Below are positions 15,429-26,477 of a stretch of DNA of 36,701 bases, piece after piece. The stretch covers positions 1 to 36,701 of the IMG/VR virus record IMGVR_UViG_3300030103_001938. The stretch is one strand, 5' to 3'. A program made the position numbers and the translations under genes. The stretch comes from a virus. The notes under the pieces are model-generated. The model searched no databases. It saw nothing but the letters and a program-made list of their open reading frames with translations, and had not been told where the DNA came from. Within the stretch, counting starts at the first letter, position 1, and every line of letters starts with the position of its first letter.

Positions 15429-15681
15429 TCGTTCCACCCACCTGTCTTTCTTTGCTTTCAGATCCCTGATTTGTTTGGGATTTATGTTCATCATTATCCT
15501 TACTGACTAATTTAATTTTTGACCCAAGATTACGCCTGTCAGTAATTGTTATTAATGCGTCTTCTTTGGGCATTTCTTGTTCATGAGCTTTTCTAGTAGC
15601 TTCCTCTACCGAATCGCCAACAAAAAATTCTTTAAAATTTACAATCATTTCTTGTAAAGTATTTTTTTCTACTTTAGCCAT
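15415..15681 (-). CDS. small hypothetical early protein
   Basis: An 88-residue hydrophilic protein. The N-terminal half (EMIVNFKEFFVGDSVEEATRK) is helical and has a beta-like middle (DALITITDRRNLGSKIKLVS); the last 25 residues are Ser/Gln/Glu-rich and probably disordered. It overlaps the LexA-like gene by 8 bases, so the two are likely co-translated. No family recognised. Confidence 0.5.
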   Translation of the reverse strand: MAKVEKNTLQEMIVNFKEFFVGDSVEEATRKAHEQEMPKEDALITITDRRNLGSKIKLVSKDNDEHKSQTNQGSESKERQVGGTNEQT

Positions 15682-15901
15682 TTAATACAATGTTTCTTCT
15701 ATATCCTTTTAAACGCTTTAAATCTTTTCTTTGTTCTAATTTAGTAATCAAAACAGTTACCGAATTTTTACTTTTAAAATCCAACGCATCAGCCATTTCT
15801 TGATAAGTTGGATAATACTTGTTCTTTTTGACATATTTTTTAATGAAATTCAATAGTTTCATCATTAAAGGTGTCATAGGAATAGTTGTTTCACTTGCCA
15901 T
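15674..15901 (-). CDS. LexA DNA-binding-domain-like regulator without peptidase domain
   Basis: A 75-residue winged-helix protein. TPLMMKLLNFIKKYVKKNKY, then YPTYQEMADALDFKSK, NSVTVLITKLEQR and LKRLKGYRRNIVL follow the LexA N-terminal domain step by step, and the EM-ALD-SK-LIT-LE-R spacing is closest to alphaproteobacterial LexA as I remember it. LexA is normally about 200-240 residues with a Ser/Lys self-cleaving domain; here the protein stops after the DNA-binding domain. Two GTTC-N7-GTTC sites in the window are candidate targets. It sits in the early minus-strand unit. Confidence 0.7.
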   Translation of the reverse strand: MASETTIPMTPLMMKLLNFIKKYVKKNKYYPTYQEMADALDFKSKNSVTVLITKLEQRKDLKRLKGYRRNIVLNG

Positions 15902-22796: not shown

Positions 22797-23225
22797 TTAT
22801 AACCTTTCGCATTTAATTAAATCGTAATATTTATTATCTAATAAATTTTTAAGTTTATTAGTATTTTTAATTGTAGCGTTGTAAGATTTTTTAGCTAATG
22901 GCGAATCTATTTCATATCCAAAATTATCGCAAAAATCTTCAAATATTTCGCCGTCAACACCTAGTGAATCGCACAATAAACAATCCAAAACAGAATCTAA
23001 TTTTGGTTCACCTTCTATGCCAAAACCTTGACTATAAAAAACAGTCATTTGTTTAAAGCCGTACCTAGTATCTAAATGGTTTCCGTCTAGCTTGAACTTT
23101 CTTTTAATAGTAACTTTGTAATGGTTCATGTCTTGATTATCCATATTAGGGTTACTATCCGCATGACTTGAACTTATTGAAAGATTATTATTTTTAATAA
23201 AATCTTTTATTGTAGCTTGATTCAT
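22797..23225 (-). CDS. conserved phage early protein of unknown function, first in minus-strand unit
   Basis: A 142-residue protein; the start at 23225 has an AGGAGGG ribosome site, and the long in-frame extension to 23354 runs across the intergenic region and is rejected. N-terminal beta segment with HYKVTIKRKFKL and MTVFYSQGFGIEGEPKLDSV, then a C-terminal domain with FEDFCDNFGYEIDSPLAKKS and LKNLLDNKYYDLIKCERL, a pattern I have seen in phages and plasmids without a known role. It probably follows a promoter in the divergent region. Confidence 0.65.
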   Translation of the reverse strand: MNQATIKDFIKNNNLSISSSHADSNPNMDNQDMNHYKVTIKRKFKLDGNHLDTRYGFKQMTVFYSQGFGIEGEPKLDSVLDCLLCDSLGVDGEIFEDFCDNFGYEIDSPLAKKSYNATIKNTNKLKNLLDNKYYDLIKCERL

Positions 23226-23301: not shown

Positions 23302-23329
23302 TATATGGCTATGTTCTTGGTTTGTTCTT
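23302..23329 (+). promoter_or_regulatory. LexA-type SOS box (GTTC-N7-GTTC) in the divergent early region
   Basis: GTTC at 23313-23316, seven bases, GTTC at 23324-23327; TATATG lies at 23302-23307. GTTC-N7-GTTC is the LexA operator of most alphaproteobacteria. The sequence TGTTCTTGGTTTGTTCTT differs by one base from TGTTCTTGTTTTGTTCTT at 24779-24796, which also has TATATG six bases upstream. It lies between the minus-strand unit (start 23225) and the initiator-like gene (23388), where it could control either. Confidence 0.65.
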
Positions 23330-23342
23330 CATTTTTTTTTAT

Positions 23343-23370
23343 TTGATTACCCAAAAAAAGGGTATATAGA
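23343..23370 (+). promoter_or_regulatory. putative promoter with 17-bp palindrome filling the spacer
   Basis: TTGATT at 23343-23348 and TATAGA at 23365-23370 are 16 bases apart and can serve as -35 and -10 boxes. The palindrome TACCC-A7-GGGTA, 23348-23364, occupies exactly the spacer. A protein bound there would block polymerase, as in an autorepressor. The next start codons are 23388 and 23409. Boxes were judged by eye. Confidence 0.45.
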
Positions 23371-23387
23371 TGCTTGGCAAAGGGTTT

Positions 23388-23780
23388 ATGAAAAATAAAG
23401 GGTTTTCAATGATTCCGAATCAAGTGATTTGGGATGAAGATTTATCAAATGACGCAAAGCTATTATTTAGCTATTTGCGTAGCTTATCGGAAAAATACCG
23501 GACTTTACGAAATAAGACGCTGTTAATAAAGCTGGGGATTAGCTTAAATACTTTACAAAATTGCAAGGCCGAACTTATTAAATTTGGCTATTTAAAGGTA
23601 ATTAGAAAGACTTCGGCTAATAAGTACGAACTAGCTATTCCTAATAAGGTAGTATTGCCATACCCAAATTTTGGGCAACCGATTACCCAAAAAATGGGTA
23701 GTATTAAGAAGAGTAATACTAATACTCAAAATACTAAATATATAAAAGGGTTTAAGAAATTAAAAGGTTTTAAGGGTTAG
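23388..23780 (+). CDS. winged-helix replication-initiator-like / regulator protein
   Basis: About 130 residues. The domain at 5-85 (KGFSMIPNQVIWDEDLSNDA, then KLLFSYLRSL, LRNKTLLIKLGISLNTLQNC and ELIKFGYLKVIRK) is the HTH_36/DnaD-like wing-helix form found in phage replication proteins. Start choice: 23388 keeps the full domain (AAAGGG close upstream); 23409 has better spacing. The linker after residue 90 is encoded by two 17-bp palindromes (23661-23700), like the origin inside lambda gene O. The Lys/Asn-rich C-terminus lacks a helicase-loader motif. It could be a replication initiator, a repressor, or both. Confidence 0.6.
   Translation: MKNKGFSMIPNQVIWDEDLSNDAKLLFSYLRSLSEKYRTLRNKTLLIKLGISLNTLQNCKAELIKFGYLKVIRKTSANKYELAIPNKVVLPYPNFGQPITQKMGSIKKSNTNTQNTKYIKGFKKLKGFKG
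23661..23700 (+). repeat. two 17-bp A-tract palindromes inside the initiator-like gene
   Basis: TACCCAAATTTTGGGCA (23661-23677) and TACCCAAAAAATGGGTA (23684-23700), centres 23 bp apart, have the same TACCC-N7-GGG form as the promoter copy at 23348-23364. The second and the promoter copy share 19 of 20 bases (GATTACCC...GGGTA). Two adjacent copies in the coding region and one in the promoter suggest binding sites for the product of this gene, or an origin. Confidence 0.65.
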
Positions 23781-23785
23781 TTTAA

Positions 23786-24091
23786 ATGTCTAATAGTTAT
23801 CCGGTAACCCCCCTGCCTTACTATTTTAAAGGCAAGGAATTACAACCAACTAAAAACAATTCTTATACTTTTAAAGAAAAGGTTGAAATTTGTATTAAGC
23901 TAAATCAAGAATATAAAGCCGGAATCTTGTCCGTTGGAAAGTTGGTTTGGATTTGGGAAAATGGCCGTTTTGGTAAATTCACCGTTGAATGTATTATTGA
24001 CGATATGCTAGAAAAAGAAATAATTAAGTTGAATCCTATTACCCTTGATAAGCGAAGATTTAGGGAAAAAAAGGGTTTTTTTGACTGGTAA
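23786..24091 (+). CDS. small protein between the initiator-like gene and terS
   Basis: A 101-residue protein. The N-terminus TPLPYYFKGKELQPTKNNSY resembles a partner-binding extension; KVEICIKLNQEYKAGILSVG and GKFTVECIIDDMLEKEIIKL, then KRRFREKKGFFDW, form a mixed helical basic domain. It follows the initiator-like gene by five bases and may be its helper. A helicase loader or initiator part is possible, but I recognise no family. Confidence 0.5.
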   Translation: MSNSYPVTPLPYYFKGKELQPTKNNSYTFKEKVEICIKLNQEYKAGILSVGKLVWIWENGRFGKFTVECIIDDMLEKEIIKLNPITLDKRRFREKKGFFDW

Positions 24092-24121
24092 TTATGTAAC
24101 AGTGTGTTGTATAAATACCAC

Positions 24122-24151
24122 ACATGCAACAACCCTTTCGCATGTTTTATT
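24122..24151 (+). terminator. candidate intrinsic terminator after the initiator-like unit
   Basis: ACATGC (24122-24127), a 12-base loop, GCATGT (24140-24145), then TTTATT. The stem is short and the T-run is interrupted, so termination may be partial. Placed between 24091 and terS. Confidence 0.4.
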
Positions 24152-24164
24152 AAGTAGCTACTTT

Positions 24165-24204
24165 GTTGGAGGGCGGTTCTCTTTCCTTTCTTACCGCCCC
24201 CAAC
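24165..24204 (+). other. GC-rich hairpin just upstream of terS
   Basis: GTTGG, bulged A, GGGCGGT (24165-24177) pair with ACCGCCC and CCAAC (24193-24204) around a 15-base pyrimidine loop (TCTCTTTCCTTTCTT). A 12-bp stem of this GC content is striking in an AT-rich genome. No U-run follows; the terS ribosome site (GAAAGGA) begins just after. It could control terS translation, terminate partly, process mRNA, or mark DNA for packaging. Confidence 0.6.
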
Positions 24205-24224
24205 CCTAGAAAGGAATTAAAATT

Positions 24225-24653
24225 ATGGTAGGAAGAAAAAGAAAATTAACCGATAAATTAGCTGAAAAGATTTTAGATTTAATAGCCGATGGTTTAACTA
24301 TTAGACAAATATTTGAAAGGGAAGATATTCAATATACTTGGACAAGTTTCCGAAAAGAATTAGTAAGCGATTCAAACTTAATGGATAGATACCAAAAATC
24401 TAAAGAACTAGCTATTGATTTAGAATTGTCAAACTTGAAAGACAAAAGACTTGAACTTGAAGCAAAAATAGAATCCGGCGAAATAGACGGCAAGGCCGGT
24501 CAAAATTTAGTTAATCTTTATAAAATTATTGTAGCTTCAAGCCAATGGTCGGCTAGTAAGTTAGCAAGTAAAAAATATGGCAAACAAGCCGAAGTTTTAA
24601 CGCTTAAAGGTTCACAAAACGAACCAATTAATATAAGTTGGAACAATAAATAA
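24225..24653 (+). CDS. terminase small subunit
   Basis: A 142-residue protein. The N-terminal HTH region (KLAEKILDLIADGLTIRQIF, then EREDIQYTWTSFRKEL) binds DNA in TerS proteins, followed by a helical oligomerisation region (YQKSKELAIDLELSNLKDKR) and a C-terminal LASKKYGKQAEVLTLKG that is typical of Sf6-like small terminases. It recognises the packaging site and stimulates TerL. The long gap to terL (24654-24996) may hold its target. GAAAGGA ribosome site. Confidence 0.8.
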   Translation: MVGRKRKLTDKLAEKILDLIADGLTIRQIFEREDIQYTWTSFRKELVSDSNLMDRYQKSKELAIDLELSNLKDKRLELEAKIESGEIDGKAGQNLVNLYKIIVASSQWSASKLASKKYGKQAEVLTLKGSQNEPINISWNNK

Positions 24654-24744
24654 ACTAAATTATGAATAAATATTGAATTAATTTATTATTTTTTATCTTT
24701 GCTTTGGTTTAAAAGTATTGATTTAATTGATAGTTTGCCATTTC

Positions 24745-24796
24745 TTGCACAAACAAAAAGCAGTTTATATATGTGAGGTGTTCTTGTTTTGTTCTT
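24745..24796 (+). promoter_or_regulatory. promoter with LexA-type SOS box at the predicted start site
   Basis: TTGCAC (24745-24750), 17 bases, TATATG (24768-24773) form a plausible sigma-70 promoter; transcription would start near 24780. GTTC-N7-GTTC lies at 24780-24794, right over that start, so LexA-like binding would block it. It points toward terL and the head genes. The element repeats the one at 23302-23329. Confidence 0.55.
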
Positions 24797-24825
24797 GAAT
24801 GATTCTAATTAGCAACAAGAGAGCT

Positions 24826-24878
24826 GATAATCGCAGATTATCGGAAGTTTATTAATGATAATTCATAAGTTATCGTTA
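24826..24878 (+). repeat. two inverted repeats built on GATAA
   Basis: GATAATC-GCA-GATTATC (24826-24842) is a perfect 7+3+7 palindrome. Next, TAATGATAA (24853-24861) and TTATCGTTA (24870-24878) form a second, with one mismatch and an 8-base loop. Four GATAA/TTATC units within 53 bases in the terS-terL gap suggest protein-binding sites, for example for TerS or a regulator. The rest of the gap 24654-24744 and 24879-24917 shows nothing I can identify. Confidence 0.5.
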
Positions 24879-24917
24879 GTAATAATTTGGCCGTAATTGG
24901 TTCTATTTATTAAATCT

Positions 24918-24960
24918 GGGGGGTTTTGAGCGACCGGCTACCCAACACCGGCGACCGGCG
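24918..24960 (+). other. GC-rich island with direct repeats, candidate packaging site
   Basis: GCGACCGGC occurs at 24930-24938 and 24951-24959, 21 bp apart, with CCGGC-type sequence between. This is the most GC-rich stretch by eye, in the terS-terL gap, where cos or pac sites commonly lie. GGGGGGTTTTG just before it (24918-24928) is repeated exactly at 25188-25198, before terL. Cleavage or binding is not shown. Confidence 0.4.
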
Positions 24961-24996
24961 TTTGATAAAAATGAATGGGTGGTATATATAAACAAA

Positions 24997-25188
24997 ATGG
25001 ATGACCTTATATTAAAAACAATAATTTTTATTATGAAAGATACTAAAACCAATAAACCGGTTGTAGTTTCACATTTTCAAGGATTCGATTCCGAACTAGA
25101 AGCACACAATTTTTCCGAATTTTTAAAAGAACAATTTATCCAACCGATTGAAAAAGAAGACCCTTATCCAAATGTAACCTTGCATTAG
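24997..25188 (+). CDS. small protein preceding terL
   Basis: A 63-residue protein from ATG at 24997; a GTG at 24979 would add six residues. LKTIIFIMKDTKTNKPVVVS, then HFQGFDSELEAHNFSEFLKE: a beta hairpin and helix with an acidic tail (IEKEDPYPNVTLH). No ribosome site stands out. The gene ends at the G-tract that precedes terL. Function unknown. Confidence 0.5.
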   Translation: MDDLILKTIIFIMKDTKTNKPVVVSHFQGFDSELEAHNFSEFLKEQFIQPIEKEDPYPNVTLH

Positions 25189-25205: not shown

Positions 25206-26477
25206 ATGAAACAAATTGTAATTCCTTACTCACCTAGGGAAATCCAAAAATTTTTGCATCAAAAATGCGATGTCAACCGATTTAATGTTGTAATAGTTCA
25301 TAGAAGAGGTGGTAAAACAGTCTTTGCTATAAACCATTTAATTAAGGCGGCCTTGACGAACAAAAACCCCTACCCAAGATACGCCTTTATTTCGCCATAT
25401 AGATTGCAAGGGAAAAGCACCGCTTGGGATTACCTAAAGCAATTTTCGGCCGCCATACCTGGAACTAAATTTAACGAATCAGAATTAAGGGTTGATTTTT
25501 CCGTCAACAATAGCCGTATTCAAATTATTGGGGCGGAAAATAGTTCTGCCATAAGAGGGCAATACTTTGACGGAATTATTGTTGACGAAACACAAAATAT
25601 ATCGCCTGATTTGTTTGATACTATTTTACGACCTTGCTTATCCGACCGAAGAGGCTTCGCTATATTCATAGGTACGCCAATGGGTCGTAATTGGTTTTTT
25701 GATTTACATGAGAAAGCTAAATCGCAAAAGGATTGGTTCACATGCGTTTTCAAAGCTAGTCAAACTAAAATTATTCCAAAAGAAGAATTAGAAGCAGCAA
25801 AATTGGCGATGTCGCCGGAAAGTTACGAACAAGAATTTGAATGTTCATTTCAAGCCGGAATTAGCGGTTCTTATTTTGGTAGCATTATTGAAGAATTAGA
25901 ACAAGAAAACCGAATACAAGATTTTGAAATTGACGAAAATCTACCGGTAGAAACTTGGTGGGATTTGGGCATGAATGACTCCACCGTAATTATATTTGCC
26001 CAAAGGCGTAGCAATGGTGAAGTTAGGATTGTGGATTGTTACGAAAATTCTAGTGAGGGGTTAGAGCATTATTTTAATGTTATAGACGATAAACCCTATA
26101 CTTATTCAAAACATATAGCCCCTCATGATATTAGGGTAAGGGAAATAGGAACTAATAAATCAAGATGGGAAACCGCAAGGGAGATGGGAATGGAATTTGA
26201 AATCGCTCCAAAACTTTCAATAGAAGACGGAATAGAACAAGTTAGAAGATTATTACCAAAATGTTATTTTCATAAAAGTAATTGCAAAAAATTATTAGAA
26301 GCGTTAAAAAGCTATTGTAAGCGATGGGATGAAAAAAATAATTGTTTTAGGAATAAACCCTTACACAATTGGGCATCACATTTTTGCGATAGTTTCAGAT
26401 ACGGTGCTATTACCGAACCAATAGAAAGAACCAATTGGAAAAAACCGATTGAAGTCAATACAAGTTATATAGTTTAA
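25206..26477 (+). CDS. terminase large subunit
   Basis: A 423-residue packaging motor. N-terminal ATPase: Walker A HRRGGKT (32-38), Walker B GIIVDE (123-128, catalytic E128) and coupling motif GTPMG (156-160). C-terminal RNase H-like nuclease: WWDLGMNDST (D253, D258) and a late acidic motif FCDSFRYG near residue 400. It pumps DNA into the prohead at the portal and cuts concatemers. Length is usual for the compact TerL of podoviruses. A G-tract lies 12 bases upstream of the ATG instead of a standard ribosome site. Confidence 0.95.
   Translation: MKQIVIPYSPREIQKFLHQKCDVNRFNVVIVHRRGGKTVFAINHLIKAALTNKNPYPRYAFISPYRLQGKSTAWDYLKQFSAAIPGTKFNESELRVDFSVNNSRIQIIGAENSSAIRGQYFDGIIVDETQNISPDLFDTILRPCLSDRRGFAIFIGTPMGRNWFFDLHEKAKSQKDWFTCVFKASQTKIIPKEELEAAKLAMSPESYEQEFECSFQAGISGSYFGSIIEELEQENRIQDFEIDENLPVETWWDLGMNDSTVIIFAQRRSNGEVRIVDCYENSSEGLEHYFNVIDDKPYTYSKHIAPHDIRVREIGTNKSRWETAREMGMEFEIAPKLSIEDGIEQVRRLLPKCYFHKSNCKKLLEALKSYCKRWDEKNNCFRNKPLHNWASHFCDSFRYGAITEPIERTNWKKPIEVNTSYIV

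Follow-up and report, generated by a model that had tools for sequence, protein, structure and literature searches.

Two LexA-type boxes in HTVC106P-type pelagiphages as predicted operators of the SAR11 host SOS repressor

Introduction

Why would a phage with no detectable integrase carry, in two of its intergenic gaps, boxes that resemble the operator of a bacterial SOS repressor? The question arose from a viral genome of 36,701 nucleotides (IMG/VR record IMGVR_UViG_3300030103_001938), analyzed here over its whole length and referred to as the window. The closest named relative of the 36.7 kb window is Pelagibacter phage HTVC106P, isolated on a SAR11 strain; the TerL proteins of the two are 86% identical. 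SAR11 bacteria are the most abundant bacteria of the ocean and dominate at its surface, and phages lacking an integrase are customarily classed as purely lytic.

The original prediction described a duplicated promoter element with alphaproteobacterial LexA boxes, possibly controlled by DNA damage or by a LexA-like protein. Part of it stood: LexA-type boxes are fixed in two gaps and match a host operator. The duplicated promoter, the phage protein encoded at 15674 as the binder, and a TATATG promoter at both boxes did not. No earlier description of LexA sites in pelagiphages was found in the literature searched.

Results

The two 18-mers, TGTTCTTGGTTTGTTCTT at 23312-23329 and TGTTCTTGTTTTGTTCTT at 24779-24796, are both on the plus strand and differ by a single base. 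Each contains GTTC-N7-GTTC, and a scan of both strands yielded these places as the sole matches in the window: box A (GTTCTTGGTTTGTTC, 23313-23327) and box B (GTTCTTGTTTTGTTC, 24780-24794), both predicted host-LexA operators. They are non-coding, as had been proposed. Box A occupies the divergent early gap, between an HTH gene with replication-initiator and DnaD-like matches (23370-23780, plus strand, start possibly ATG 23388) and the likely ATG (about 23225) of the divergent early gene phrog_4273 (22797-23225, minus strand), the start of which was set at the ATG behind a GGAGGG motif. Box B occupies the terS-terL gap, between the stop (24653) of the Sf6-type small terminase gene terS (24225-24653, plus strand) and a small conserved ORF (24979-25188, plus strand) preceding the large terminase gene terL (25206-26477, plus strand).

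The presence of two boxes in the gaps had been judged notable against the chance expectation; the positions held and the statistics did not. The bare pattern is expected 0.66 times in the window, and at least two matches appeared in 13 of 100 window shuffles, which is not significant. The 18-mer is more striking than the bare pattern, as none of 100 shuffles reached its match count with up to three mismatches allowed. The window alone therefore makes a weak case, in which chance is a fair rival, and conservation in relatives was the decisive test, which removes this doubt.

For this comparison, we took HTVC106P and 80 viral contigs carrying a close terL and extracted the sequence before the HTH gene (gap A) and that from terS to the small ORF preceding terL (gap B). 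The boxes recurred in the same two gaps of HTVC106P-type pelagiphages, with only the N7 spacing conserved. GTTC-N7-GTTC was present in 32 of 35 gap A sequences, where every other spacing between N3 and N11 was absent, and in 38 of 62 gap B sequences, where N8 occurred once and the remaining spacings from N3 to N11 never. The N7 spacers were free to vary (16 versions in gap A, 13 in gap B). In a census of all direct-repeat tetramers, GTTC/GAAC with N7 took the top rank in gap A; in gap B it was outranked solely by a shifted register of itself. When the sequences were clustered at 80% identity, the box was retained by 13 of 16 representatives for gap A and by 16 of 32 for gap B; dinucleotide shuffles of those clusters gave expectations of 0.03 and 0.1, respectively. 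HTVC106P itself has exactly two matches, one per gap, with box A at 36883-36897.

The gap B box was found at two main places, mostly on the opposite strand. Such shifts of place and strand would be better explained by selection acting repeatedly on the site than by an inherited fixed stretch. Box B is missing in 24 of 62 relatives, which counts against the LexA-operator reading, as do its moves and flips. Several relatives without a perfect box share the same half-changed form, GTTG-N7-GTTC (six contigs), which suggests a weaker site or decay.

The notion of a duplicated promoter element did not survive the comparison. Among the relatives, each box varies in flanks, spacer and orientation independently of the other, and the two are mostly oppositely oriented; on these grounds we rejected it. 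The argument from matching flanks proved weak as well: the TATATG upstream of box A is not kept in relatives, and the flanks of the two boxes are unrelated.

In a sister clade (terL identity to the window about 59%), 20 of 67 records bear the box some 450 nt 5' of terL, with N7 spacing only and one or two copies in each record where it is present. Among HTVC010P-type phages, GTTC-N7-GTTC is absent from HTVC010P, HTVC204P, HTVC034P, and HTVC028P and occurs once in Skadi-1. HTVC008M (KC465899) contains eight matches in 147 kb, one of which bears the exact umuDC-type box core. The 18-mer is also present in many other viral contigs, 83 of 122 places being outside ORFs of at least 70 aa, and further phage groups may carry such boxes. 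Terminase genes like those of the window were nearby at just 15 of these 122 places; most of the matched contigs lack them, and we therefore left the collection count out of the evidence.

We then compared the boxes with the SOS operators of the host. The published LexA motif of Caulobacter is GTTCN7GTTC (PMC12700426). Full-length LexA with DNA-binding and S24 peptidase domains is encoded in eight of ten SAR11 genomes, and GTTCTATAAAAGTTC is located at the promoter of all eight SAR11 lexA genes. Scanning seven SAR11 genomes for TGTTC-N7-GTTCT returned lexA in 7/7, umuDC in 4/7, and ribonucleotide reductase in 4/7, plus some intragenic matches. The umuDC box of several SAR11 genomes is identical to the flanked form of box B at 24779-24796 over 18 of 18 positions. 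The 17-mer was detected in 80 of 197 Pelagibacteraceae genomes (reversed control, 0), and all 32 places inspected were 0-4 nt upstream of umuD. The assignment to the alphaproteobacterial LexA operator form was thus borne out, SAR11 LexA having exactly such an operator at its own lexA and at umuDC. These matches strongly support the reading of both phage sites as host LexA operators. The LexA-type box at the ribonucleotide reductase promoter, seen at four SAR11 loci, makes this gene a possible member of the LexA regulon. Infection by another pelagiphage, HTVC027P, raises host recA, lexA, umuD, and umuC (PMC12753301), so SOS in SAR11 can be set off by infection.

Promoter-like elements accompany both boxes at different positions. 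TATATG precedes both 18-mers, at 23302-23307 (gap of 4 bases) and 24768-24773 (gap of 5 bases). Upstream of box B it belongs to a putative promoter on the plus strand (24745-24773), in which TTGCAC (24745-24750) is followed by 17 bases and TATATG; TTGCAC is found in gap B of 33 of 62 relatives. At box A, a promoter ending in TATATG had been proposed too, but there the conserved promoter-like element comes after the box (TTGATT, 16 bases, TATAGA; 23343-23370, plus strand). A TTGA[CT]T..TATA-like element follows box A in 27 of 35 relatives, 21 times at a distance of 3-5 nt and 5 times at 15-18 nt, the two distances differing by roughly one helical turn. A strict sigma-70 scan of the window listed no promoter at either box, and both elements are best regarded as candidates. 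Box A is situated just 5' of its element, a position that would also allow LexA to activate, which counts against the reading as a repressor site.

Gap B contains further elements. In the window (24824-24960) and in the same gap of relatives, a conserved hairpin, CTGATAATCGCAGATTATCGG, is joined by another, imperfect hairpin and by a run of GGGG, all upstream of the small ORF. TTATCGG-type motifs occur in 55 of 62 relatives and GGGG in 61 of 62; the hairpins and the run are possibly a packaging site, a terminator or an RNA element. Upstream of terS, a near-palindrome, TGTTGTATAAATACCACA (24105-24122), is a candidate operator for another phage regulator, and 23 of 62 relatives have similar TTGCAAAAATATCACA motifs in their gap B.

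The phage also encodes a LexA-domain protein of its own. The 75-aa product of 15674-15901 (minus strand) consists of a winged-helix LexA DNA-binding domain (PF01726, 36.7 bits against a cut-off of 23.7), and P0002, the protein of a relative, matches solved LexA chains. The S24 peptidase, or self-cleavage, domain (PF00717) was detected neither in this protein nor in the phage records. Of 22 records from relatives, 11 encode a similar protein; the others are mainly short fragments. Several small phage proteins matched no known family.

Integrase searches of these phages were empty, in line with the predicted lack of an integrase; the integrases known from HTVC011P and HTVC019P were recovered by the search. 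Neither a ParA-type ATPase nor an S24 repressor was detected in these phages. A prophage search of 397 SAR11 genomes revealed no close terL. One SAR11 contig of 399 kb carries a distant relative (terL about 47%) with an integrase-like gene and tRNA-Met adjoining, probably an integrated prophage; the 58 kb inspected there (positions 242001-300000) showed no LexA-type box. As a point against the LexA reading, HTVC106P came into culture by infecting its host, and no dormant state of it is known.

Discussion

The explanation that we favor, and consider probable, is that boxes A and B are SAR11 host LexA operators, which repress the early (replication) and packaging promoters and release both upon SOS in a phage without a detectable integrase. 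As the sites copy the switch of the host's SOS repressor, the host alarm probably times the replication and packaging genes of the phage. In an undamaged cell, host LexA would occupy both boxes, A adjoining the promoter of the HTH/replication gene and B between terS and terL, keeping transcription for replication and packaging low. RecA would be activated by UV damage or by phage replication intermediates. LexA would then cleave itself, and both phage promoters would open alongside the host umuDC and ribonucleotide reductase genes. Judged from sequence, repression by LexA and release by SOS are likely; LexA binding, the direction of control, both promoters and their induction by damage are presumed.

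A bolder form of this explanation is a tentative possibility. Integrase-less SAR11 phages may have an SOS-gated dormancy or delay, with host LexA silencing replication and packaging in healthy cells until damage, for example by sunlight UV, frees them, and with the phage LexA-domain protein acting as a second regulator in the manner of GIL01.

The original prediction also offered the 15674 protein as a binder. As the main one, it would order the phage's own early and packaging genes, perhaps also sitting as an uncleavable occupant on host SOS promoters. Its favor rests on the occurrence of a protein with only the LexA DNA-binding domain in the window, in HTVC106P and in the records of 10 relatives, but its recognition helix (SKNS[VI][TS]..) is unlike that of host LexA (SKSGIHR). 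The differing residues are at positions that presumably touch DNA in LexA. Such proteins are also found in sister-clade phages, HTVC103P and Hodr, despite boxes there being absent or few. The helix difference and the presence in box-less phages make this protein an unlikely main binder; it is probably a separate phage regulator.

Titration is a still less convincing role for the boxes. Replicating phage DNA would act as a sponge for LexA, turning on host umuDC and ribonucleotide reductase to supply nucleotides and lesion bypass, with control of phage genes being secondary. The operator at both host loci and the rise of host SOS genes during HTVC027P infection (PMC12753301) are consistent with this, but just two sites per genome, tied to two promoter gaps and unscattered, speak against it. 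That the boxes are chance matches, or look-alikes with another role such as iterons or packaging signals, is very improbable: the shuffled windows with two matches and the possible packaging elements of gap B lend it something; against it stand the 18/18 match to the host SOS box and the fact that both gaps and both clades keep N7 exactly while the spacer letters vary.

If host LexA does gate these promoters, SAR11 lysis would hinge on DNA damage, for instance from sunlight UV, and the lytic and temperate labels of marine phages would call for care. The SAR11 LexA regulon outlined here from sequence comprises lexA, umuDC, and a ribonucleotide reductase, and its operators are directly testable.

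Among known systems, the logic of the proposed circuit is closely paralleled by that of the Bacillus phage GIL01. GIL01 is likewise non-integrating and has host LexA boxes at early replication and late promoters, and its gp6 is a truncated LexA homologue that lacks the cleavage domain (PMC6182141, PMC4551915). Here too, boxes lie at the replication and late/packaging regions, and the phage encodes a truncated LexA homologue, the 15674 protein. In GIL01, gp6 activates the late promoter through its own site, and host LexA represses together with gp7 (PMC6182141, PMC4551915). The differences are considerable: in GIL01, a tectivirus, lysogeny and LexA binding are proven and gp7 serves as a co-repressor (PMC6182141, PMC4551915), whereas the window represents a tailed SAR11 phage with no known dormancy, its circuit being read from the genome. 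The two phages are unrelated, so we do not propose that their circuits have a common origin. In CTXphi, SPC32H, and similar phages, host LexA sites in phage promoters tie the lytic cycle to damage; these phages are temperate or integrating (as cited in PMC9437464), unlike the window phage with no detected integrase. In CtrA-controlled lytic deferment, alphaproteobacterial phages similarly borrow a host regulator for the timing of lytic genes; that regulator belongs to the cell cycle (PMC9437464), whereas the one apparently borrowed here is the SOS repressor.
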